From Synechocystis sp. LKSZ1 (GTDB lineage Bacteria; Cyanobacteriota; Cyanobacteriia; Cyanobacteriales; Microcystaceae), in NCBI RefSeq assembly GCF_040436315.1, contig NZ_AP031572.1:2914001-2978000 (forward strand): a stretch of 64,000 bases of DNA, written 5' to 3'. The notes under the pieces were generated by a model. That model had not been told where the DNA came from. It saw only the letters and a list, made by a program, of their open reading frames with translations, and made no database searches. Of the stretch, positions 6,451 through 63,759 are shown one piece after another (the first letter of the stretch is position 1; every line of letters starts with the position of its first letter). The translations under genes were made by a program, and so were the position numbers.

Positions 6451-6903
6451 ATGAACCCTGTTCCGCTTTGGATTATTGCCGGCTCTGTTTTGTGCCTGCT
6501 GGAACTGATCTTCCCCACGGCTTTTGTCGAGCTGATGATGGGGATTAGCGCCATTATGGTGGCGGGGATTGCCCTGGTCATTCCCAATCCAGGGATTCAG
6601 GTCGCTTGCTGGTTGGCGATTTCAACCTTCTTAGTCATCGTGTCCCGTCGCTTTCTACCCCAACGAGCGGCCCATCGTCGGCCCCTCCAAGATGCCGTGG
6701 AAGGAGAAACCCTAACGGCGATTTTACCGGGCCAAGCCGGCCGAGTGCTCTACGAAGGCAATTCCTGGCGGGCTGAGTGCCAAGACCCCTCCCTGGAATT
6801 GGCCCCCCAGCAGAAGGTTTATATTATTGGTCGCAAGGGCAATACGCTAATGGTTTATCCGGTGGAAGAGCCCAACCCTCAGTCTCTATTTCCAGCAGAA
6901 TAA
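6451..6903 (+). CDS. NfeD-family membrane protein
   Basis: The 150-residue protein has about three N-terminal membrane segments (residues 5-65) and then a soluble OB-fold-like C-terminal domain (about 75-145: GETLTAILPGQAGRVLYEG, YIIGRKGNTLMVYPV). This is the short NfeD form. NfeD proteins partner with stomatins encoded next door, and the stomatin gene indeed follows 42 bases downstream. The pair probably organises membrane microdomains or controls membrane protein quality. Confidence 0.88.
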   Translation: MNPVPLWIIAGSVLCLLELIFPTAFVELMMGISAIMVAGIALVIPNPGIQVACWLAISTFLVIVSRRFLPQRAAHRRPLQDAVEGETLTAILPGQAGRVLYEGNSWRAECQDPSLELAPQQKVYIIGRKGNTLMVYPVEEPNPQSLFPAE

Positions 6904-6945
6904 ACAGCATTAATTACAATCAAATTATTAGGAGACATTACAGCA

Positions 6946-7917
6946 ATGGAAGGTTTATTTATTCTTTTCTTTTTGGCCTTTGGCGGCTCGGCCCTCTTTG
7001 GTTCTGTCAAAATCGTCAATGAAAAAAATGAGTACTTAGTAGAGCGCCTCGGGAGCTACAACAAAAAATTAGAACCGGGCATGAATTTTGTGGTTCCCTT
7101 CATTGACCGGGTGGTTTACCAGGGTACTATCCGCGAAAAAGTCCTCGACATTCCCCCTCAATCCTGTATTACCAAGGACAATGTTTCCATCACCGTGGAT
7201 GCCGTGGTCTACTGGCGCATTGTGGATATGGAAAAGGCCTACTACAAAGTGGAAAATCTCCAGTCTGCCATGGTCAACTTGGTATTAACCCAGATCCGAG
7301 CCGAAGTGGGCAAAATGGAACTGGACGAGACCTTTACCGCCCGTTCTGAAATTAATGAACTGCTCCTACGGGAATTAGATATTTCCACCGATCCCTGGGG
7401 CGTTAAAGTGACGCGGGTAGAACTGCGGGATATTATGCCCTCCAAAGCCGTGCAGGATTCCATGGAATTGCAAATGGCCGCCGAACGGAAGAAACGGGCC
7501 GCGATCTTGACCTCTGAAGGGGAACGGGATGCTGCCATTAACTCGGCCCAAGGGAAGGCCCAAGCCCGCGTTCTGGATGCCGAGGCCCAAAAAACCGCCG
7601 CTATTCTTAAGGCCGAAGCCGAGCAACAACAAAAAATCCTAGAAGCCAAAGCCACTGCCGAGGCCTTAGCGATCCTGACTCAAAAACTCAGTTCCGACCC
7701 CAATGCTCCCGAGGCCCTGCGCTTTTTATTGGCCCAGCAGTACCTGACCATGGCCGCTAGCATTGGCACCAGTGATAGCAGTAAGGTGATGTTCCTCGAC
7801 CCCCGCAATATTCTGGCTACCCTAGAGGGCGTTAATTCCGTTGTGGGCCAGGGCCAACTCCAGGCCCTGGGTCTAGAACAGGCCTTGGAAAAAATTGACC
7901 GCCACCGGGCCAGTTAA
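6946..7917 (+). CDS. Stomatin/SPFH (band 7) membrane protein
   Basis: The 323-residue protein has an N-terminal membrane anchor (residues 2-20), a band 7 domain ([19 protein letters not shown] onward, to about residue 190) and an Ala/Glu/Gln-rich coiled-coil (about 185-240). The C-terminal segment LFLDP is typical of paraslipin-type stomatins. RBS TTAGGAGAC precedes the ATG. It forms oligomeric membrane scaffolds with the NfeD partner encoded just upstream. The last four bases overlap the convergent recO. Confidence 0.92.
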
Positions 7918-46215: not shown

Positions 46216-46611
46216 ATTCTTTTTGATAAGACCCAAGAACCTGGGCATTGCATTTTGATTCAGCAACGCCTGCTTTTTGTAAACCTTACTTCAACTTCGC
46301 TTCTGTCCATGGAGTTATAGCTGTTTAGATTGAAAATGATACAGCTTGTTTGACAGAGATTCTTAATTAGCAAGCTTTAGTCCACCCGTGACTGTCTCAG
46401 AATAAATCAAATCAACTATACAGTTGAGCCTCTGTCAATAGTTTGTGAGTGAGGAGTTGCTTTAGTCTTCAACGCCTAATTGTCTCATTGGCTTAAAATG
46501 GGCTTAAATAACTTTGATAATCTTCGCTAATTTTAGACAGTCTTAGGTAATCAGATTTTGAGCAAAAACCCAAAAACCGGACTAGATAAGCGTTTGAAGT
46601 TATTGCGAATA
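46216..46611. other. AT-rich non-coding region left of the att site
   Basis: No plausible ORF is present. The region holds a TCAACT/AGTTGA inverted repeat (46412-46427, four-base centre) and two direct GGCTTAA repeats 11 bases apart (46490-46496 and 46501-46507). The same heptamer recurs on the other side of the tRNA fragment. The sequence may be the original downstream flank of the tRNA gene, or a remnant of an earlier insertion. Confidence 0.5.
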
Positions 46612-46653
46612 TGGCTCAGGCGGGATTTGAACCTGCGACCTTGGGCTTATGAG
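46612..46653 (-). tRNA. 3' fragment of a CAT-anticodon tRNA (attachment site)
   Basis: On the minus strand the sequence runs from the anticodon loop CTCATAA (46653-46647) through the variable region, the T arm (GTTCAAAT loop) and the acceptor 3' strand CTGAGCC plus discriminator A at 46612. No encoded CCA follows. The 5' half (acceptor, D arm and a pairing anticodon stem) is missing. This is the normal scar of integration into a tRNA 3' end, with the crossover near the anticodon loop. It is probably elongator tRNA-Met. Polarity predicts that the intact tRNA lies at the element's other end, beyond the window. Confidence 0.8.
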
Positions 46654-46692
46654 TCCCCTTGGCAAATTTTCAAACCCTAGTTATAGCAATAG

Positions 46693-50129: not shown

Positions 50130-51725
50130 CTAACTGATCAGTGGGCTTTCAAAGTCACTTTCTTTCTCGGTATCAACGTAGATTTTGAAGCGCTTCTTGG
50201 CCCACTCTTTGTTCTTGGTGTGTAGATAGCTGGGGTCTGTGATGCCATTGGTAGAGCGCACAATGGTATAGGTTCCAAAGGCGGGATACATCAGGACACT
50301 GCGTTTTTTCTCTGCGGGGGGCAGAAGCGAGTCGTCTATTTCTGTATGGGCAGGAAATCCTACCATCTTGGCGTTAGATAAAGTTAGTAGTGACTTAATG
50401 AAAGACAATCCCTCGGTGGGAGTAGAAGCCCAGACCTGCATCTGTCGCCCATTGTCTAGACGAACTGTCGTCAAGACAGGGCCATAGGTGAAGCGAACGG
50501 CGGCTTGCTTGATTTTTTGCCAGGTAAGAGGCTTGGGGTCAGGAATGTTGAGAACGCTTCTTCTAATGCCTTCTACTTCAAAGGGGGGTTTCTCTTTGGA
50601 GTAATAACGAAGTTGAAGGTTAGCCCTTTTAGGGGTGGCTCGTTGCCATTCTTCGTAGGGGACAGCCAGAAATTCTCCAACATCACGAGGGCCTAAAATG
50701 CCCTGTTGGAGTAGGGCTGATTCTGCCTGCTGGATTACCTCTTCCTGGTCACCTTCTAGGTAAATAAAGGGGTCATCAGCACTGGGGACAGGTGGAGCCC
50801 CGTCGTCTCCCAGTTTGTTGCTGGGGTTCAGGTAAAGCCTAATGGCCCGTTCGGTGTCGGGTGGGGGCTGGTCGGCGTATTTGTTGTTTTGGAAAAAGTC
50901 ATCTAACGAATAGGCCATGACATAGCCCATGTCGATAATTGAGTCTTCCACTGCATCCAAGAAAGCCCGCCAGTAGGCTCTGTCTTCAGGGTCTTTGATG
51001 GACTCAATTTTTTTGTCAATAGCATCGGCAATTGTCCAGGGTTTTTTGTTGTCTGAACTGTAGATCGACTTCTGCCCAAATAATTCATAACGTCTTGCCG
51101 ATAACAAGGCTTTAATCCAGCCTTTGCTAACAGTAGATCTAAACCACGTCTGGAAAAACGCGCCTATTTTGGCGGCAATTTCACTGCTTCCCTCTTCTGC
51201 CACTTCCAAGGCCATATCAGCGGCAATAACTGGCCACTTAAACGCAACCCCAGCGGCTACAGCTGCGCCCACAGTCCACACAACACTTGTTCCTGCCAAA
51301 GACCCTTTGGCCGCTGCTATACCAATGTCCAGTTGCTTAATAGCTTCTTCTAGTTGCGCGTCGGTTTGATTCCAGTCAAAATTTTTAATCTCGAAGTAGC
51401 TTTCTACACAAAAATCCCAGATTCCAGAAATAGAAAAATCTGGAATCATCCAGCCAATGGTCTTTTCCCAGATAGCGCCCAAAAACTTAAGCGCCCCGCC
51501 GATAAAATTCAGGCTCCCCCCCAAGGCTCCAAAAATATCTTGAACAAGTTTTCCTAATCCTCCCAAGGGATGCTCTTTCTTCTGCTTGGCGAAAAAGTCA
51601 AAAACACGGGGGCCGAGGGTATTCCTAACTTTCTCACTGGTCAAAACATCAGGGATTTCGTAGCCAAAAAAGTTTTTGGCCGCCGTGCCGATTGCTTTAA
51701 ACGAATTCCCCGATAGTGCAGGCAT
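50130..51725 (-). CDS. Large late protein with hydrophobic N-terminal half, 531 aa
   Basis: The N-terminal third has a glycine-rich amphipathic stretch (LGGLGKLVQDIFGALGGSLN, then FIGGALKFLGAIWEKTIGWM). A hydrophobic segment (SVVWTVGAAVAAGVAFKWPV) lies near residue 155. The C-terminal half is soluble, with strands such as AVRFTYGPVLTTVRLDNGRQ. The start overlaps the stop of the 115-aa gene by one base (TAATG). It could be membrane-active, for example in genome delivery, but this is inference. No family is recognised. Confidence 0.65.
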   Translation of the reverse strand: MPALSGNSFKAIGTAAKNFFGYEIPDVLTSEKVRNTLGPRVFDFFAKQKKEHPLGGLGKLVQDIFGALGGSLNFIGGALKFLGAIWEKTIGWMIPDFSISGIWDFCVESYFEIKNFDWNQTDAQLEEAIKQLDIGIAAAKGSLAGTSVVWTVGAAVAAGVAFKWPVIAADMALEVAEEGSSEIAAKIGAFFQTWFRSTVSKGWIKALLSARRYELFGQKSIYSSDNKKPWTIADAIDKKIESIKDPEDRAYWRAFLDAVEDSIIDMGYVMAYSLDDFFQNNKYADQPPPDTERAIRLYLNPSNKLGDDGAPPVPSADDPFIYLEGDQEEVIQQAESALLQQGILGPRDVGEFLAVPYEEWQRATPKRANLQLRYYSKEKPPFEVEGIRRSVLNIPDPKPLTWQKIKQAAVRFTYGPVLTTVRLDNGRQMQVWASTPTEGLSFIKSLLTLSNAKMVGFPAHTEIDDSLLPPAEKKRSVLMYPAFGTYTIVRSTNGITDPSYLHTKNKEWAKKRFKIYVDTEKESDFESPLIS

Positions 51726-52072
51726 TAGATCGTTGTTCCTGTGATTTCATTAACATTAAGTGGAACCACGCCAGTTACAGAGCGGGTACTTTGGGCCGTT
51801 GGGCCACTATTGCTGAGACTCACTGACGAGAACGTACTAAAAAAGCTGTTTAATCGACTGCCGGTCGCCACTCCCGTATTGGCCGTGGTTTGGGCCGCCT
51901 CAGCCGCGCCGAGCAATTTAATGCAGAATTCAACGACACCACTGGCCGACAAGGCATCTATGGTGTCTCCGGTGAGCAGGGAAGCGGAAATTACGACATC
52001 ATCACCACTCAGAGAAATGGCCCCGGCGGGGGCCGCGTTGGCCAATTGTTGAAAGGTTAGATCACTAGGCAT
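51725..52072 (-). CDS. Small late protein, paralog of the 117-aa protein
   Basis: The 115-residue protein is Ala/Ser/Thr-rich. Blocks shared with the gene at 49444-49797, in the same order: LTFQQLANAAPAGAISLSG, SLLTGDTIDALSASGVVEFC, KLLGAAEAAQTTAN, LNSFFSTF. It is coupled to both neighbours, overlapping the 630-aa gene's end by eight bases and the 531-aa gene's start by one. The two paralogs each accompany a larger protein gene, which may mean they are paired accessory or coat subunits. Confidence 0.68.
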   Translation of the reverse strand: MPSDLTFQQLANAAPAGAISLSGDDVVISASLLTGDTIDALSASGVVEFCIKLLGAAEAAQTTANTGVATGSRLNSFFSTFSSVSLSNSGPTAQSTRSVTGVVPLNVNEITGTTI

Positions 52073-53957
52073 CGTCTTGGTTATCTGAAACTGGGATGTT
52101 ATCTATGATAGGTCGTGGCTTCTGGTCTAGTTTCTCGTAGCCCGTGGGGAGGTTATTTTCCTTGATCCATTTGTCCCATTGTTCGTCAGCTAATTTTTTA
52201 GCTTCTTCTCGTTTCTGTTTGATTTTTTCACCGGGTAAAGGTTCACCGGGTTTATACTTGCGCCAAACCGCGCTGGCCGCCTTGGCCGCATTCAGACCAA
52301 CAGTAATTAGGTCTTCCTTCATGACGGCCTTATCTACATTTTTCCAGCGCAAAACGTTGTGTTTGCTAGGCTGTTGAAACTCCATTAAATCGTCGGCTTT
52401 GGGGTTAAAGGGAAGGGGAACTTCCTCAGAGTCAGTTTCGCCGTTATAGCCCAAGAATTTAGAGATGGCGACAACGTGATCATGGGTCAGCAAGTCTTGG
52501 TTAAACAGCTTGATTAACTCAGATAAGGCCTTGATTTGCATCTGGGTTTGATGTTCTGAGAGGAGGTTGATATTGAAAACCAAGTTGAACAACTCACCGA
52601 TTGCTTCTGCCATATTGGGGAGATGAATTTCCTCCTCTTTTTTGCCATCGGGTGATTTAACCTTGATAGTCGTAGCCCATTCCCCAAAAAGGGCATCTAA
52701 TTGGCGGTTCTGCCAGTCTTGAATTTCCAGCATATCGCCCAGCTTGATTAGTTTTGGCGGTGGCGGAGTTCCTCCTTTCTTGCCAGTAGTCAGGCCTGCT
52801 TTGTCTTTGACTAAATGCTCAGGATATTCCTGGGGTAAACGATGGTATCCGGCCCGGAAAAAGGCGGCGGCGGACATTAAAGCCATTAGGCGGGGGAGGG
52901 ATTTAATTTGTAGTTTGTTGCCGTCTGTGGTTCCAGAGATGCCTTCAATAAACTGCTTGACGTTGCCACTTTCTAACGCCGCCTTTACTTGTTTACTGAA
53001 TTCCTCGCTCTCACCATTTTTGGCAAATTGTAGTAGCCCGTATCCTTTCAGAATGTCTTCCGGGGAAGCGGTCAAGGCCCAGCTAAAATCATCCACTCCC
53101 AGGACTTTACGAATTTCGCCGTCTGTTGAAATTTGCAGTTTCTGATCGCCGAGGGTTGTAGGGGTACTGTCTGCAATGGGCTTATTGCCGACCGTCAGCT
53201 TAAGCGGTACATAGCCCGTGACCTCTTGGTAAGCATTGGCGCGGGACACATTGTAGGCACTGGCTAGCACGGCTAGGGGTTTCATTCCGTAGAGCAAACC
53301 GATTTCACCGGATAAACCAGGAATCGAAGCCGGGGCTACTAAGGCAAAGCTGTCCCAAAGGGTTAAGTCCTTGGCCAGCTCGTCATATTCCTTTTTCTCC
53401 TCCTGGTTTGCTGGCTGGGCCTGTTGTAAGGTCATCCAGTTCGCAAACTTTCTAACGGAGTCTTCTTTTGCCGCCGTTAACTGCTCTTTAAACTTACTGA
53501 GTTGCAGGTTATAGCGCTTGATCGGCTTGGTAGAAACTGGATGGGTGAGCAGGCCACCGTAGGGCTTTTCCGTCAGTTGTTGCTTAATGCTGATACTGCG
53601 TTTCTTGGGGGTCTTAGTGTCAGTTTGTCCGTCGGCTTCCTTAGGTAAACGCCGGTTAGGGACTTCGGGAGGATCCTTGATTTCAATGCTGACTTCTGGC
53701 CTGGCCCCATTCCCCGTTGGCACATAAACCACGCTGGGCGGCGGCGTTAGGCTAGGGGGATTGAAGTTGTAGGTGTTGTAATTGTTGACGTTGTGGGTAT
53801 TGGTATTAGAAAAATCGAAGTTGTTATTAATATCCGGGGGGTCTGGCTCCTGGGGAAGTTCCGGATCTTTCGATAATGGCGGGTTGAGATAATCAATAAT
53901 GGCCGCGGCGGCCACACTGGAAATAATTGCAACGCCAAGGGCGGCCGGTGCTCCCAT
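52065..53957 (-). CDS. Large late protein with N-terminal membrane segment, 630 aa
   Basis: The ATG follows TTTAGGAGGATTTT, a near-ideal ribosome site. A short hydrophobic N-terminus (APAALGVAIISSVAAAAIID) is followed by an Asn/Pro-rich low-complexity region (about 35-90: NNNFDFSNTNTHNVNNYNTY). The remaining domain is mostly helical and charged. The C-terminus is acidic (IPVSDNQDDA). It resembles a membrane-anchored or virion-anchored structural protein in layout only. No family is recognised. Confidence 0.65.
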   Translation of the reverse strand: MGAPAALGVAIISSVAAAAIIDYLNPPLSKDPELPQEPDPPDINNNFDFSNTNTHNVNNYNTYNFNPPSLTPPPSVVYVPTGNGARPEVSIEIKDPPEVPNRRLPKEADGQTDTKTPKKRSISIKQQLTEKPYGGLLTHPVSTKPIKRYNLQLSKFKEQLTAAKEDSVRKFANWMTLQQAQPANQEEKKEYDELAKDLTLWDSFALVAPASIPGLSGEIGLLYGMKPLAVLASAYNVSRANAYQEVTGYVPLKLTVGNKPIADSTPTTLGDQKLQISTDGEIRKVLGVDDFSWALTASPEDILKGYGLLQFAKNGESEEFSKQVKAALESGNVKQFIEGISGTTDGNKLQIKSLPRLMALMSAAAFFRAGYHRLPQEYPEHLVKDKAGLTTGKKGGTPPPPKLIKLGDMLEIQDWQNRQLDALFGEWATTIKVKSPDGKKEEEIHLPNMAEAIGELFNLVFNINLLSEHQTQMQIKALSELIKLFNQDLLTHDHVVAISKFLGYNGETDSEEVPLPFNPKADDLMEFQQPSKHNVLRWKNVDKAVMKEDLITVGLNAAKAASAVWRKYKPGEPLPGEKIKQKREEAKKLADEQWDKWIKENNLPTGYEKLDQKPRPIIDNIPVSDNQDDA

Positions 53958-53966
53958 AAAATCCTC

Positions 53967-56900
53967 CTAAAGTTTCTCTTCTTCGTCTTGTTTATAAGCT
54001 AACTGAGCCGATACCACCGGGGCCAGATTTGACAGTATCCAAAACATGAAATCCACCAGGCTCGGGGAATCTGACGACAGCCCAGGATAGGGAATCTGCA
54101 CCGTTTGCCCCGCGACGGTTGCCGGCAAGGTCTTCAGTTCAACAGGCAGGCCTTGGCTGGCCAAAAGCTCTTGCAGAATGGCCACAGATTTCATGTTTAA
54201 GACCTCAGATCGATTGACATTCCCTGACATCGCACTCAGCATGTAGGCGATTTCAATCAGCAGACTGTGCATTCCTTCGTAGGCAATGTAGCCCGTCTTG
54301 TCGGCCCTGGGGATGACGTTGGCCCCCAAATCCTGCAGGCCAAAGGCCCGGTCATCGTCGTCATATTTGACCTCCAGCAATTGGATCAGGCTGTTTACCA
54401 AAACCCAGCCCCCCTCCTCAATGACCCCATTGGCCCCGGTGAATTTATCCGTCCCAAATCCATTGCTCCTGACTTCGTAGGCATAGCCCACGCCATTGAC
54501 CGCGACCTTATCACCGTTAGACTTGGTGGCGATCCAATTATTCTTGCCCCATTGGCCAATCTGCCATTGCTCGGGAATGGTTTCGCCGTCTTTTTTATGC
54601 TCAGTGTCTCGCACTTTCAACATTTCCCCATCGCTGGCAAAATGCAGGCCTAAAACGTTGGCCATCTTGTCAATGAGCCAGCCCAGATTAGCTACTCGGT
54701 AAGAGGCCGGATATTTGTCATCGTTGGCATATTTGTCGGCCTGCAAGGCCGCGTGAATTTCTTTAACTCGAATCGAATCAGGCATAAGGTCTCCTATCCA
54801 GTCGGTATTGTCATCGTCAAAAACTAAGGGGAAGTTTCTATTCTGCAACGGGTCAGGGTTGGGGTCGCAGATAAAGAAACCGGGTTGGGGTTCAATCAAT
54901 TTCAAGAATTGGGCTTCCGTGGGATAAGAAACACCTCCACTTGAATACAGAATGTAAAGCGGTTTGGTGAGGGGTTGTACCCGCAGGGAACGGGTCAGCC
55001 GTTGAGTAGAGGCAATAACGCCGCTCAGGTCGGGTCTTCCTATCCTGAAATAGCCATCTTGGAGCAGACCGCTATCGCTGTACTTTAGTTGGCTCCCGTT
55101 GTTCCCTGGCAATGAATTGATGATGGCCGTGCCGTTGGTCAGGTCGTTGGGATAGGTCGTTTTCACCAGCATTTGGTTAACGACTTCGTGGTAATTCAGG
55201 GTGTCTCTGCTGACATCGCCAATGGGGCCTTCTTCGTTGGGCCAATACCAGGTATCCGGTTGTATCGCGTCGTAGTTTGGCCCGAGGGAACGCCACTCAG
55301 TTATTACATGCTCGGTCAATTCCAAATCGTGACGGAACAAGGCGACCTGATCATCGTAAAAAAGTTCTAGGTTATTGGCGGAAAAACTGACAGAAATAAA
55401 CCGGGGATTAAATTGATAAAAATACTGATTAATGGTTTGCCACTGGCTCCCGTAGGCAACATCCGTCGGCGCTACGTCGATGCCTTGGTGGTATTGGTTG
55501 ACCGTATAAATAAAGCCAACATCGTTATCAAAGTAAATGGAATTAGCGAAGGGCCGGGAATCAATAATCACCTCTTCCGCATACCTTCCGCCGTCGCCGG
55601 GGTGGCTATATTCAGCCGTGTTGATAGAGAGCTTTGCGCTTTCTGGGTAACTGTAATCAAAGTCAAAAAAGAACACATAGCCAGGCTTTGAGCCTTCCGG
55701 TTCTGAGGGAACGCTGTCGCCTTCTGGGGAGCGAGTTTGATTAATGGGATAGCTGGCCGTGTGCTCGGTTCTATACCACCAACGATTGGGGGAAGCATCA
55801 GGAATCACATCCAGCCCATTCAATAAACTGGCCTCGGGTTCTGTCGTGGAAGCCCGATAAAAGCAGTGGGTTTCGTTCACCCAAACCGACGCATCGCCAG
55901 ACCGAGTTGGCAGGTCTGCAATCGTTTTAACCACGGGATACCCATTGATGGGGGATAGCCGAGGCATGGCCTCACTCGGGTTGTGATTATTGGTAAAGGT
56001 TTTGAGAGACGCCGTGACCGCGAAACTGGCGATATTATTCGCCAAGGGGACGACTAAGGCAGGACTGCGCGACGGTTGGTTAAAATCCAATCCCCAGGGA
56101 ACTTTAACCGCATTCTCTGGCCAAAGCGCTCCTAGATCTAAATGGGTTAGCGAAACGGTAAACGTCAATGATGGCCCCTCTGGATTATTGACCACCCCAG
56201 CAATCAGCACCGGGGGTTTCCCTAGGTTGGCCCGGGGCCCTTCTAAGGTGAACAGCGGCTGATTATTCCGCTTGGGAGGTACAGCATAAATTAAGGTCGC
56301 AAAGTAATATCCTGATGGAATGGTTTGGAACAACGGCGAGCTGTAGAGCAAGCGGTGGTTAAATCTCAAGCGCGGGGAAATGTCGTCAGGGAGCGTCACA
56401 CCTTCCGGTGTGTAGTTGCTGAGTAGGGTGGCATCCACCGCCGTCAAGGCCTTGGGTTCGCTAATCCTCAGTTGGCTGTAGCAATCTTCTAGAACATCGT
56501 CCAAATATTCGTAGAGCAAAAGGCGTTTTTCGGCTTGGTTCAGACTCTCTAGGGTCGCATTTTGCAAGACAACTGAATTGTGCAAAAAGCTCAGGGTAAA
56601 AATTTCTAACGTAACGTCGTCAGCAATGGCCGTGATGACCTTATGCCGACGCATCCAGACCTGGATTTTGTTCGTCACCTGGGGGCAATATTGCCAAGCA
56701 AAAACCTCTACATGGGTGCGTTCCAGCCAGGAAATTAGTCCGGTCTGGCCCTTGGCCACCGTGACCTCGATTCGGTCTGGAAAGCTGGCCCCTAAGTCTA
56801 ATTCTGTGGGGAGATTGGCCTGGTATTCTGGCTCAAAACCGTAGGCAGAACCATTGATTTCCCCATCGTTGAGCAGATGAGTACGGCTCAATGGTTTAAG

Positions 56901-57125
56901 GAAATCGAAATAGGTCGTTGTCCATTCACTGGCCCAGGGGATAGCGTCACCACCGGGGATGTAGCGGTCAACCAAGACGATGGGAAGCATTCCTTCCACA
57001 AAAGGCCCATTCCCAAGGAATGAATAATATAGAAGGTCGCAGATCTGGGGGTCAATCCGCTCGGCCCAGAGTAGGTCATGAGTTTGATCGGGGTCGAACA
57101 AGTAGAGGGGAAGGTTTACGGTCAT
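53967..57125 (-). CDS. Very large late protein, 1052 aa, unknown family
   Basis: The 1052-residue, beta-rich, Tyr/Trp/Pro-rich protein has no signal peptide. Motifs such as WYWPNEEGPIGDVSRDTLNY and a long LxVPLANNIASFAVTA-like strand content suggest a virion structural or receptor-contact protein. The C-terminal 170 residues are more helical (SLIQLLEVKYDDDDRAFGLQ, MFWILSNLAPVVSAQ). Size and position just downstream of the beta-helix gene are like those of a baseplate or vertex protein, but I recognise no family. Its ATG overlaps the preceding stop by one base. Confidence 0.7.
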   Translation of the reverse strand: MTVNLPLYLFDPDQTHDLLWAERIDPQICDLLYYSFLGNGPFVEGMLPIVLVDRYIPGGDAIPWASEWTTTYFDFLKPLSRTHLLNDGEINGSAYGFEPEYQANLPTELDLGASFPDRIEVTVAKGQTGLISWLERTHVEVFAWQYCPQVTNKIQVWMRRHKVITAIADDVTLEIFTLSFLHNSVVLQNATLESLNQAEKRLLLYEYLDDVLEDCYSQLRISEPKALTAVDATLLSNYTPEGVTLPDDISPRLRFNHRLLYSSPLFQTIPSGYYFATLIYAVPPKRNNQPLFTLEGPRANLGKPPVLIAGVVNNPEGPSLTFTVSLTHLDLGALWPENAVKVPWGLDFNQPSRSPALVVPLANNIASFAVTASLKTFTNNHNPSEAMPRLSPINGYPVVKTIADLPTRSGDASVWVNETHCFYRASTTEPEASLLNGLDVIPDASPNRWWYRTEHTASYPINQTRSPEGDSVPSEPEGSKPGYVFFFDFDYSYPESAKLSINTAEYSHPGDGGRYAEEVIIDSRPFANSIYFDNDVGFIYTVNQYHQGIDVAPTDVAYGSQWQTINQYFYQFNPRFISVSFSANNLELFYDDQVALFRHDLELTEHVITEWRSLGPNYDAIQPDTWYWPNEEGPIGDVSRDTLNYHEVVNQMLVKTTYPNDLTNGTAIINSLPGNNGSQLKYSDSGLLQDGYFRIGRPDLSGVIASTQRLTRSLRVQPLTKPLYILYSSGGVSYPTEAQFLKLIEPQPGFFICDPNPDPLQNRNFPLVFDDDNTDWIGDLMPDSIRVKEIHAALQADKYANDDKYPASYRVANLGWLIDKMANVLGLHFASDGEMLKVRDTEHKKDGETIPEQWQIGQWGKNNWIATKSNGDKVAVNGVGYAYEVRSNGFGTDKFTGANGVIEEGGWVLVNSLIQLLEVKYDDDDRAFGLQDLGANVIPRADKTGYIAYEGMHSLLIEIAYMLSAMSGNVNRSEVLNMKSVAILQELLASQGLPVELKTLPATVAGQTVQIPYPGLSSDSPSLVDFMFWILSNLAPVVSAQLAYKQDEEEKL

Positions 57126-59905: not shown

Positions 59906-60199
59906 CTAGGCCTTGGGAAAAAAGCCGAATCGGATAGTTGCAGTAATCAAGGCCCCCAGAATAGCCAGGATTAAAGCCCAGATTTGTTTGTTCTGGTTGT
60001 CTTCGAGGCGTTGGACACGTTGGTCTAGGGTATCCATCTTCTCCTCTATCCTGATCAGGTTCCCGTCTAGCTTGGTTTGGGAAACTTTCAAATCCGTCAG
60101 GTCTGCATCTATGCGGTCTAGGCGTTGCTCCAAGCGGTCGAAGCGCTGGTCAAATTTAGCCAGGATGTCTTTCAGGTCAGTTTCGATGATGGTGCTCAT
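59906..60199 (-). CDS. Coiled-coil protein with C-terminal membrane anchor
   Basis: The 97-residue protein is a continuous heptad coiled-coil (about 8-70: FDQRFDRLEQRLDRIDADLT). A C-terminal membrane helix follows (IWALILAILGALITATIRFG). Such proteins are common in cyanobacterial genomes without known function. The ATG overlaps the stop of the XRE repressor gene (TAATG), so it is expressed with the repressor, like a lysogeny-expressed accessory gene. Confidence 0.7.
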   Translation of the reverse strand: MSTIIETDLKDILAKFDQRFDRLEQRLDRIDADLTDLKVSQTKLDGNLIRIEEKMDTLDQRVQRLEDNQNKQIWALILAILGALITATIRFGFFPKA

Positions 60200-60465
60200 T
60201 AGGATTCCTTCACTTTTGCATGGTCTTCAGGGTCTGGGAGGGAAAGAAGTAAGTCGTCAAACGAATATCCAGCTTGCCGAAGAACACTGTGAAGCGTTAG
60301 TGCTTTCATCAACCAGTCAGGAATCTCAACCCCTCGCTCAATATTGCTAATGTTGGGACGCTTTGTACCTAGCCGCTCAGCGAGTTGGTCTTGAGTGATA
60401 TTTAGCTTTTTTCTGACTTGCTTTAATGTCACTGGCGTTTTTATTGACTCTTGGGGCAGGTACAT
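60199..60465 (-). CDS. XRE-family repressor
   Basis: The 88-residue protein has a helix-turn-helix (about 13-50: TLKQVRKKLNITQDQLAERL, then GTKRPNISNIERG) of the Cro/CI type and a short helical tail. It is divergent from the early genes. A perfect 7-3-7 palindrome lies 14 bases upstream of its start, so it probably represses itself and possibly the early promoter. There is no peptidase domain, so induction would not be by LexA-like self-cleavage. Confidence 0.8.
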   Translation of the reverse strand: MYLPQESIKTPVTLKQVRKKLNITQDQLAERLGTKRPNISNIERGVEIPDWLMKALTLHSVLRQAGYSFDDLLLSLPDPEDHAKVKES

Positions 60466-61656: not shown

Positions 61657-63759
61657 ATGATACCACAAAATAACGGTCATAATCCCCTCTCTGCAATGAT
61701 TCCGCCCCACAGCATTGAGTTAGAGAGAGCGGTCATCGGTTGCATCCTTTTTGATTCCAACGCCATACAAAAGCTTGACAGAAACCTGATTCCTGATGCC
61801 TTTTATGTGAAGGCTCACCAAACCATTTACCGGGAGGTATTGAAACTGCATCGTGACGGATTCCCCACCGATCTAAAAACCCTGGCTACGCGCCTTCAGG
61901 AAAGACAGCTATTGGATGATGTTGGCGGGATTGCTTCACTGTCGGAGATGCTCAGCGAGACGGTCGGCTCAGGGGCGTTAGACCGCTACGTTGCCAAGCT
62001 CAACGAGAAATACGCCCGCCGGCAAGTATTGGAACACGCCAACGATTTAGTCCAGGTGGCCAAGGATGAAAGCTGGCAGGCCGACGGCTTCCTTGAATTT
62101 GTGAACCGTCTCCAAGAACGGATCGGAGAAGCGACCCAGCAGATCGGAGCCGACGAAGACAAGCACCAGCGCCAATACGAAAGGCTGGTCGAGGAAGTGA
62201 GGAAAATTGAACAGACCGTAGCAGACCCCGGACTAAAACTGTTCAAGATGCAGGCTTTGGCCAGCAGAACAGGGCATACCACTAAATTTCTTAATCACTT
62301 GTACCTGAAGAATTTGGCGGCCCGAGAAGTAGAACCAATGATGGGGTTGAAGGAAGTCAAGGAAAAATACGGGTCATCGGTTCAAGAATGGTTTCTCCAT
62401 GGCTTCGGGCCGGCTGGCAGTGTTGTCTTGCTCCATGCCCACGGGGGGGTAGGCAAAACCAGGCTGATCTATGACTGGATTTATTCAATGGTCAGGGGGG
62501 AGTCATGGGAGGGGCATCACGTCACGGCCCCGACCAGAAGAGCGCTCATCGTCCAGACGGATGAGAGCCAAGGCGATATGCTCAACGCGCTCGACCACAG
62601 GGGGTTTACTGACGATATGCCGGTCAAGGTTATTACCCGTTGGACGGCTGACCACATGGCCGCCCTGCGCGTCAACATCGAACAATTCCGCCCGGAGGTC
62701 ATCCTAATTGATAGTTTGACTAGCATCAACCGAAATAGCCTTTTCTCCGAAAATGACACTGAGTATGCCCGGCCGGTTTTGGAATTGAGGGATATTGCCC
62801 AGGAATACGGATGCTTGATTTATTTGGTTCACCATTCCAACAGCGAAGGAGGGAGCCGAGGAACCAAGGCCATTGCCGCCAGTGTTAGCCACATTTTCAG
62901 CCTGAGCCGGCCCAGCCAACTTAGTGACCCCACCACTAGCCAACGGATTTTGGCCATTGACAAGAGCCGTAGCCGCGCCCCTGGCAAGTATGAATTAGAG
63001 TTCAATCCCGAAACAGGGGGATGGTCTTTCAATGGAGAGGCCGGCCAGGATAGCGGAGGCGATACAACGGAAGAACGGATTTTAGAATTTTTGGAACAAA
63101 ACAGAAACAAGGTTTACGAAGCTTCAGAAATTCACGCAATCGTAGGGGGGGAGTCAAGTTTTATTAGACGGGTGCTTAATCGCCTCGCTCAGAATGGACG
63201 AATCAGCCGGCGCAAATCAGCTACTAACGGTCGTGCCTATGTGTACTGGCTAGGGATGTCGGGGGATGAATACCAAAGAACTGTGCTTCCAAACCCAAGC
63301 ACACTTGAAGCACAGATGAAGCACACTTCCGAAGCACACTTCCCAAACCCAGACACAGAGCCAGTTCAAGGGGGCTTGACAACGAACTGTGCTTCACGTT
63401 TTGCAAATTTTTCGGGAACGGACGGACAGGAAAATCAAAATTTTGAAGCACAGAAGCACACTTCATCTGAAACCCAGTCAGAGAGCGACTTTACAACTGT
63501 GCTTCCCAACTGTGCTTCAACTGTGCTTACTGAATATCAAGCACAGTTGGCCAAAAATGGGGAGCCGGTTGACCTTCCCCCCAACGAGTCGCGCCGCCCT
63601 CCTGTACTAAAGCGCGGTGACGTTGTGCTAGACCAGGATTACCGTGGGTATTGGTTAGATTCCTTCCACAAAAATGTATGGTGGGCTTATCGGGAAGGAG
63701 AGGAATTTGTAGAGCTACGCCCTGATCAGATTGCGGCTGTTTGGAAAGTAAAAGAGTGA
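61657..63759 (+). CDS. DnaB-N/RecA-like replicative helicase with embedded iterons
   Basis: The 700-residue protein has a DnaB N-terminal domain (about 13-120: HSIELERAVIGCILFDSNAI), then a RecA-like ATPase (about 245-430) of RepA/AAA_25 type. Walker A is GGVGKT (263-268), Walker B is VILIDSLTSINR, and an IYLVHHSNSEGGSRGTKAI loop follows. A winged-helix-like domain lies at about 468-531. Residues ~542-630 are low-complexity and coincide with the 12-copy AAGCACA array. A short C-terminal domain (GDVVLDQDYRGYWLDSFHKN) closes it. Likely role: element replication, with the origin inside its own gene. Confidence 0.85.
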   Translation: MIPQNNGHNPLSAMIPPHSIELERAVIGCILFDSNAIQKLDRNLIPDAFYVKAHQTIYREVLKLHRDGFPTDLKTLATRLQERQLLDDVGGIASLSEMLSETVGSGALDRYVAKLNEKYARRQVLEHANDLVQVAKDESWQADGFLEFVNRLQERIGEATQQIGADEDKHQRQYERLVEEVRKIEQTVADPGLKLFKMQALASRTGHTTKFLNHLYLKNLAAREVEPMMGLKEVKEKYGSSVQEWFLHGFGPAGSVVLLHAHGGVGKTRLIYDWIYSMVRGESWEGHHVTAPTRRALIVQTDESQGDMLNALDHRGFTDDMPVKVITRWTADHMAALRVNIEQFRPEVILIDSLTSINRNSLFSENDTEYARPVLELRDIAQEYGCLIYLVHHSNSEGGSRGTKAIAASVSHIFSLSRPSQLSDPTTSQRILAIDKSRSRAPGKYELEFNPETGGWSFNGEAGQDSGGDTTEERILEFLEQNRNKVYEASEIHAIVGGESSFIRRVLNRLAQNGRISRRKSATNGRAYVYWLGMSGDEYQRTVLPNPSTLEAQMKHTSEAHFPNPDTEPVQGGLTTNCASRFANFSGTDGQENQNFEAQKHTSSETQSESDFTTVLPNCASTVLTEYQAQLAKNGEPVDLPPNESRRPPVLKRGDVVLDQDYRGYWLDSFHKNVWWAYREGEEFVELRPDQIAAVWKVKE
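63282..63545. repeat. Iteron array: 12 copies of AAGCACA in the helicase gene
   Basis: Forward copies begin at 63297, 63308, 63319, 63332, 63446, 63454 and 63539. Reverse copies (TGTGCTT) begin at 63282, 63388, 63498, 63511 and 63522. Several neighbours are 11 or 13 bases apart, and many share the longer form GAAGCACAGTT. The copies fall in all three codon phases, so protein repetition does not explain them. An AT-rich stretch (63396-63445) between clusters could be the unwinding element. This is a probable replication origin or partition-type site. Confidence 0.8.

Follow-up and report, generated by a model that had tools for sequence, protein, structure and literature searches.

A likely iteron origin inside the gene of its presumed helicase-initiator in a cyanobacterial integrated element

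Why should one short word be repeated many times, on both strands, within the coding sequence of a helicase? The question is raised by a 64-kb stretch of the genome of Synechocystis sp. LKSZ1 (hereafter the window, meaning the whole stretch of DNA analyzed), in which positions 63282-63545 hold 12 exact AAGCACA/TGTGCTT heptamers within 264 bp, both strands counted. The reading we consider likely, at a probability of roughly 0.82 and without replication or binding data, is that this array is an iteron origin located within the gene for the helicase that initiates from it.

The array and its gene

The features on which the argument rests are given below, with individual iterons placed by heptamer count.

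46608-46659, no strand: left att core of 52 bp, an exact match to the 3′ part of a tRNA-Met gene
60199-60465, minus strand: HTH_3 repressor-like gene upstream of the helicase (Pfam)
61657-63759, plus strand: 700-aa helicase gene containing the array (open reading frame, family matches)
61702-62004, plus strand: DnaB N-terminal domain, aa 16-116 (PF00772, E 1.8e-24)
62380-62850, plus strand: RecA-like AAA_25 helicase domain, aa 242-398 (PF13481, E 1.6e-21)
63067-63249, plus strand: winged-helix domain, aa 471-531, presumed origin-binding, no binding data
63282-63545, no strand: iteron array of 12 exact AAGCACA/TGTGCTT, encoding about aa 542-630
63282-63288, minus strand: outer left iteron
63297-63338, plus strand: left cluster, iterons at 63297, 63308, 63319 and 63332 (spacing 11, 11, 13)
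63388-63394, minus strand: inner left iteron
63395-63445, no strand: array center, mildly AT-rich, candidate melting region (melting inferred)
63446-63460, plus strand: inner right iteron pair, 8 bp apart
63498-63528, minus strand: right cluster, iterons at 63498, 63511 and 63522
63539-63545, plus strand: outer right iteron
63604-63756, plus strand: C-terminal tail beyond the array, aa 650-700, pLDDT below 50 and thus without a reliable fold

The full 64-kb window contains 15 copies of AAGCACA on both strands, 12 of them inside the array, and there is no second cluster of the word in the window. By chance the window total would average 7.07 (maximum 12 in 100 shuffles), equivalent to 0.029 per 264 bp, and the best unrelated 7-mer elsewhere in the window reaches five copies (264-bp windows, steps of 20). 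When the whole 3.67-Mb genome was scanned for AAGCACA(N3-6)AAGCACA, five matches were found, all in the array. Seven of the window heptamers lie on the plus strand and five on the minus strand, the three codon phases receive four each, and successive starts are separated by 15, 11, 11, 13, 56, 58, 8, 44, 13, 11 and 17 bp, such that most neighbors within the two clusters are 11 or 13 bp apart.

A first-pass annotation, made from the sequence alone, had claimed 12 exact heptamers in both orientations and all three codon phases, a chance expectation of about 0.03, and spacings of 11 or 13 bp, and all of these claims held on recounting. Its statement that many copies are extended has to be corrected, as the full extended word that it gave, GAAGCACAGTT, is present at only 4 of the 12 heptamers; the extension AAGCACAGT occurs at 6 of 12 and AAGCACACTT at 4 of 12. 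The AT-rich patch it described is only partly borne out, being mild: AT content does not exceed 60% in the 30-bp windows of the array that were examined (window mean 48.5%), and is 0.56 near the array dyad versus 0.49 in the flanks. A GC-skew signal at 63.4 kb had been proposed as a check, and no switch was found there; the skew is uninformative.

The same annotation had named the host gene as a DnaB-N/RecA-like helicase, which Pfam upholds (PF00772, PF13481). DnaB chains are the best matches and support the N-terminal domain. Pfam does not list the DnaB_C helicase domain for this protein, giving AAA_25 instead, nor does it list a DUF927 or D5 helicase type, and DUF3854 was not found in the window helicase or in five relatives scanned. 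MarR-like matches to the winged-helix region are weak and below the Pfam cut-off. In an AlphaFold2 model based on an alignment of 15 sequences (mean pLDDT 67.4), this region folds into three helices and two strands at a pLDDT of about 80, and from residue 545 to the end pLDDT is below 50, so that the array-encoded segment is disordered in the model. The repeats sit inside the gene of the presumed initiator (array 63282-63545 within 61657-63759); both that role and the function of the array are inferred.

The gene belongs to an integrated element of about 19 kb between att cores, the right core lying outside the window at the tRNA-Met gene (L006 3557-3608) with an integrase adjoining it. The element also encodes an endolysin; no capsid or terminase was recognized among the element proteins scanned, which did not include all frames. 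Three large proteins of 531, 630 and 1052 aa are encoded on the minus strand at 50130-57125; under the thresholds applied, none of them matches PHROG or Pfam. In addition, the host-side flank of the left att core (46480-46607), about 130 bp long, resembles the inner arm beside the right core (L006 3430-3556), as if an earlier related element had possibly used the same tRNA gene. The word AAGCACA is absent between 49163 and 63281.

Arrays in related helicase genes

If the array has a function in the element, relatives of the helicase should be informative. Comparison rested on protein search only, with a 13-row profile (A1) of the helicase and winged helix that is too divergent for pattern scans. 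It matches 69 of 388 genomes of the order, including that of the window, and at a stricter limit an A1-type helicase is found in 39 of 386 genomes drawn across the phylum. The order-wide scan gave 87 places, and only five first-look candidates per genome were scored, so these counts are lower bounds. We analyzed 82 loci: 77 of the 87 places (short or fragmentary ones were omitted) and five plasmid or phage loci, namely three of eight plasmid records with a match and two phages. More than 500 bp of DNA follow the winged helix in 77 of the 82; L053 and L054 have no profile match. A further search for relatives gave at least 14 loci. Among viral contigs, the single window protein gave no match, profile A3 identified no relative in 156 candidate stretches, and profile A2 identified two in 77 (L164, L165). 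There is no close relative with the window heptamer, and none of four same-genus genomes matches at 1e-20.

For each locus we counted how often the commonest 7-mer occurs per 300 bp, once just behind the winged helix and once in the rest of the locus, excluding low-complexity, G/C-free and HIP1-like words. Seven or more copies are reached just after the winged helix in 32 of 77 loci versus 3 of 77 anywhere else, and five or more in 48 versus 22, even with an "elsewhere" that is several times longer than the region after the winged helix. The region exceeds the rest of the locus in 46 of 77 cases, equals it in 16 and falls below it in 15; hence 31 loci show no excess. Because the first 17 loci had suggested the region to be tested, we recounted without them, and the 60 loci not used to frame the test give 26 versus 2 at seven or more copies, with 36 wins, 14 ties and 10 losses. 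Five or more copies occur in 63 of 94 real regions versus 1 of 940 Markov shuffles.

Arrays were then pruned of near-duplicates: removing L150, L159, L153, L123 and L092 left 57 of 62 for the layout test, the further removal of L122 and L156 left 55 for covariation, symmetry and word counts, and omission of arrays with gapped domains left 51 for covariation. Of the 55 distinct arrays, 46 have at least five copies in the open frame, with 42 of these on both strands and 31 in all three phases, and the commonest spacings across distinct arrays are 11 bp (56 cases) and 12 bp (58). In seven of the 55, every copy lies beyond the end of the open frame; for one of these (L102), whose domain match breaks off, a frameshift is possible. 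In a Gloeocapsopsis locus (L040, which shares its contig with L159), the reading frame of the helicase stops immediately behind the winged helix, and the array follows past this stop, at about 6770-7078, as in SaPIs.

Plasmid relatives L148 and L149 carry arrays, and class members outside the order reach seven or more copies at 5 of 11 loci and five or more at 8 of 11; these 11 are a subset of those listed, in which L171, L174 and L176 look like loci already analyzed and L186 and L187 have no matched winged helix. By exact counting, a clear array is absent from S-CBS4 (three copies), S-CBS3 (four), the Synechocystis B12 plasmid (four) and the viral contigs L164 (three) and L165 (four). Exact counting may miss degenerate arrays; an example is the family's second helicase in the LKSZ1 genome (L037 4516-4644, near 2038500), which has a weaker, degenerate TTACGCACAAC-like array in the same place. 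As a control we took 21 loci whose match was to the DnaB-N part; 12 of these came from a single genus. Five reach seven or more copies somewhere, three as one-direction tandem runs, L024 as two opposed runs and L034 with one reversed copy. Tandem repeats, mostly of 7-20 bp period and largely in one direction, lie near these DnaB-N-matching genes in L020, L024, L027, L029 and L034.

A good part of the 45 mapped arrays share a plan, which the window array follows. Direct repeats spaced 11-12 bp apart form a cluster at one side and are followed by inner sites or 8-bp pairs; beyond a gap of about 50 bp come further inner sites, and then a second cluster that points the other way. L104, whose helicase domain is 53% identical to that of the window helicase and whose heptamer is ACGATCA, can be superimposed on the window array: 9 of the 12 window sites fall no more than 3 bp from one of its sites and share its strand (null 4.6, p 0.003). 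Including L104, 10 of 47 arrays match the window layout at p below 0.05, against a chance expectation of about two. Array layout is therefore partly kept even where the heptamer has been replaced. Mirror symmetry is also evident in aggregate, with 230 matched sites in 41 arrays versus 167.5 expected (sd 6.7), but this figure is not a clean probability, because the arrays share ancestry. Taken singly, 10 of 43 arrays are symmetric at p below 0.05 and 33 are not, the window array being among those without significance (8 of 12, p 0.11). In 12 of 15 symmetric arrays, AT content is higher at the center than in the flanks.

The words themselves are diverse. The 55 distinct arrays have 47 top heptamers, some of which are different readings of one word, and grouping by shared 6-mer gives 21 word groups. 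The largest comprises 20 heptamers around GATC, a sequence present in the heptamer of 29 of the 55 arrays, and AAGCACA is alone in its group.

The first-pass annotation had predicted that homologous elements would keep the repeats even as the peptide diverges. In pair comparisons, with repeats defined as exact copies in either member, 7 of 12 pairs changed at no more than 6% of repeat bases and at 5-47% of other bases. Mismatches in repeats versus elsewhere are 0/96 vs 206/740 for L121/L122, 3/84 vs 296/768 for L121/L125, 2/94 vs 340/724 for L119/L125, 6/101 vs 311/721 for L121/L119, 0/49 vs 90/509 for L155/L156, 1/42 vs 91/477 for L041/L046 and 0/77 vs 29/622 for L091/L092. Four of these seven pairs are drawn from just four loci (L119, L121, L122, L125), and conservation is slightly favored by the definition, because copies lost in both members go uncounted. 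Smaller conservation is seen for L158/L160 (13/84 vs 114/537), L041/L043 (9/42 vs 250/503) and L129/L133 (10/32 vs 38/83), and there is none in the two pairs whose heptamers differ, L104/L112 (47/95 vs 399/753) and the window with L104 (75/120 vs 218/396). In the seven conserved pairs, few repeat bases change at any codon position although the surrounding sequence does change, which points to selection on the DNA. The prediction is thus met in related elements; for the window's own heptamer, no close relative is available for comparison.

An origin model and its rivals

Several copies of one short site, at near-helical-turn spacing in the gene of a presumed (inferred) initiator, would be explained if the array were the replication origin of the 19-kb element. 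In such a model, the winged helix would anchor helicase subunits on the repeats, with two hexamers held face to face at the opposed clusters, and the array center would melt, allowing helicases to load on opposite strands. The DnaB-N domain may bring primase, whose recruitment is known for DnaB, and forks would leave both ways after excision or induction. The protein segment encoded by the array would be a tolerated, disordered linker. The in-gene origin proposed by the first-pass annotation is supported by recurring arrays and conserved repeats, with origin activity and binding untested.

Who reads the repeats is less certain. That annotation had left the recognizer as the helicase or an unknown early protein; we favor the helicase by inference, with no binding data. 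Arrays with similar heptamers tend to belong to similar proteins (correlation with the winged helix r 0.39, Mantel p 0.0005, 51 arrays), but in the same arrays the winged helix adds nothing beyond helicase-domain similarity (partial r 0.009, p 0.44). That the winged helix recognizes the repeats is inferred only, and since covariation did not single that domain out, this is the weak link of the model.

Other explanations must be weighed against this one. The repeats might be a control locus at which the helicase binds its own gene to limit expression or copy number, with the origin elsewhere. Iteron plasmids do use the same sites for control, as in plasmid inc regions, and the 46 of 55 arrays that lie in an open frame could block transcription. 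However, opposed clusters around an AT-richer center suit melting and loading, the lack of another AAGCACA cluster in the window speaks against an origin elsewhere, and 7 of 55 arrays lie wholly beyond the open frame (L102 possibly through a frameshift), so that we regard this explanation as unlikely. It is less likely still that the repeats serve as an operator, partition or packaging site for some other element protein, be it an HTH repressor or an early protein of unknown identity. The HTH_3 gene at 60199-60465 offers a candidate, and the failure of covariation to single out the winged helix leaves room for one. Yet no AAGCACA lies near the repressor gene or its upstream region, and in plasmids L148 and L149 arrays follow the helicase gene amid different neighbors.

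A functionless minisatellite or selfish repeat, spread in a tolerant linker, can be almost entirely set aside. The disorder modeled for the array-encoded segment and the tandem minisatellites in control loci of relatives would be compatible with it. Against it are the presence of copies on both strands and in all phases, a spacing that is uneven yet partly conserved, the small change of repeats between close relatives, and a layout kept with another heptamer.

Relation to known systems

Two known systems work in a comparable way. In phage lambda, the origin with its initiator-binding repeats lies inside the coding sequence of gene O (PMC5043065), and the window repeats are likewise inside the coding sequence of the presumed initiator. 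Lambda O is not a helicase and recruits the host DnaB through P. The window gene, in contrast, itself encodes a helicase, its sites are heptamers rather than the 19-bp sites of lambda, and by Pfam its product does not fit a lambda-type, loader-dependent O protein without a helicase domain. The SaPI Rep and SCCmec Cch2 helicases use a C-terminal domain to bind iterons adjacent to their own genes, SaPI Rep apparently as two hexamers (PMC7581432). The window helicase too has a winged helix on its C-terminal side and adjacent iterons, which by analogy it may bind. In SaPI Rep and Cch2, by contrast, the iterons come immediately after the gene and the helicase type is DUF927 or D5; the window array is in frame, within the gene of a RecA-like AAA_25 helicase.

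More distant comparisons can be made. Among solved matches of profile A1, RSF1010 RepA (1g8y, E 8.4e-11) is the best plasmid replication helicase, with KaiC scoring slightly better; RSF1010 binds its iterons with a separate protein, RepC. The α protein of phage P4 is a primase-helicase whose origin-binding winged helix binds iterons, and those iterons are outside the α gene. CyRepA1/CyRepA2 and CyRepX1/CyRepX2 of Synechocystis plasmids are also cyanobacterial plasmid Rep proteins with helicase-like parts, the types being DUF3854 with DEXDc, or DEXDc/HELICc-like by fold (PMC9978351, PMC10079941, PMC10899382). These papers describe other protein families, and the word "iteron" is absent from their main text. 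We found no description of the window-type helicase family in the open-access literature searched, which covered titles and abstract openings and left most subscription journals uncovered. Within that literature, an array in the gene of the helicase itself appears to be an undescribed variant of the iteron origin, for which in-gene (lambda O) and helicase-binding (SaPI Rep) precedents are known.

A bolder reading, toward which the evidence tips only slightly, is that a widespread family of cyanobacterial element helicases carries a two-hexamer origin in its own gene, such that one gene approaches a complete replicon, and that the layout has been kept while the recognition word was repeatedly replaced, giving about twenty origin-word groups. 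If the origin reading is true, the replication start of many cyanobacterial plasmids and integrated elements would be readable from sequence. A natural series of arrays with a common layout and different words would then provide a route to the co-change of initiator and site, and to the way in which a coding sequence bears a second constraint at the level of DNA.
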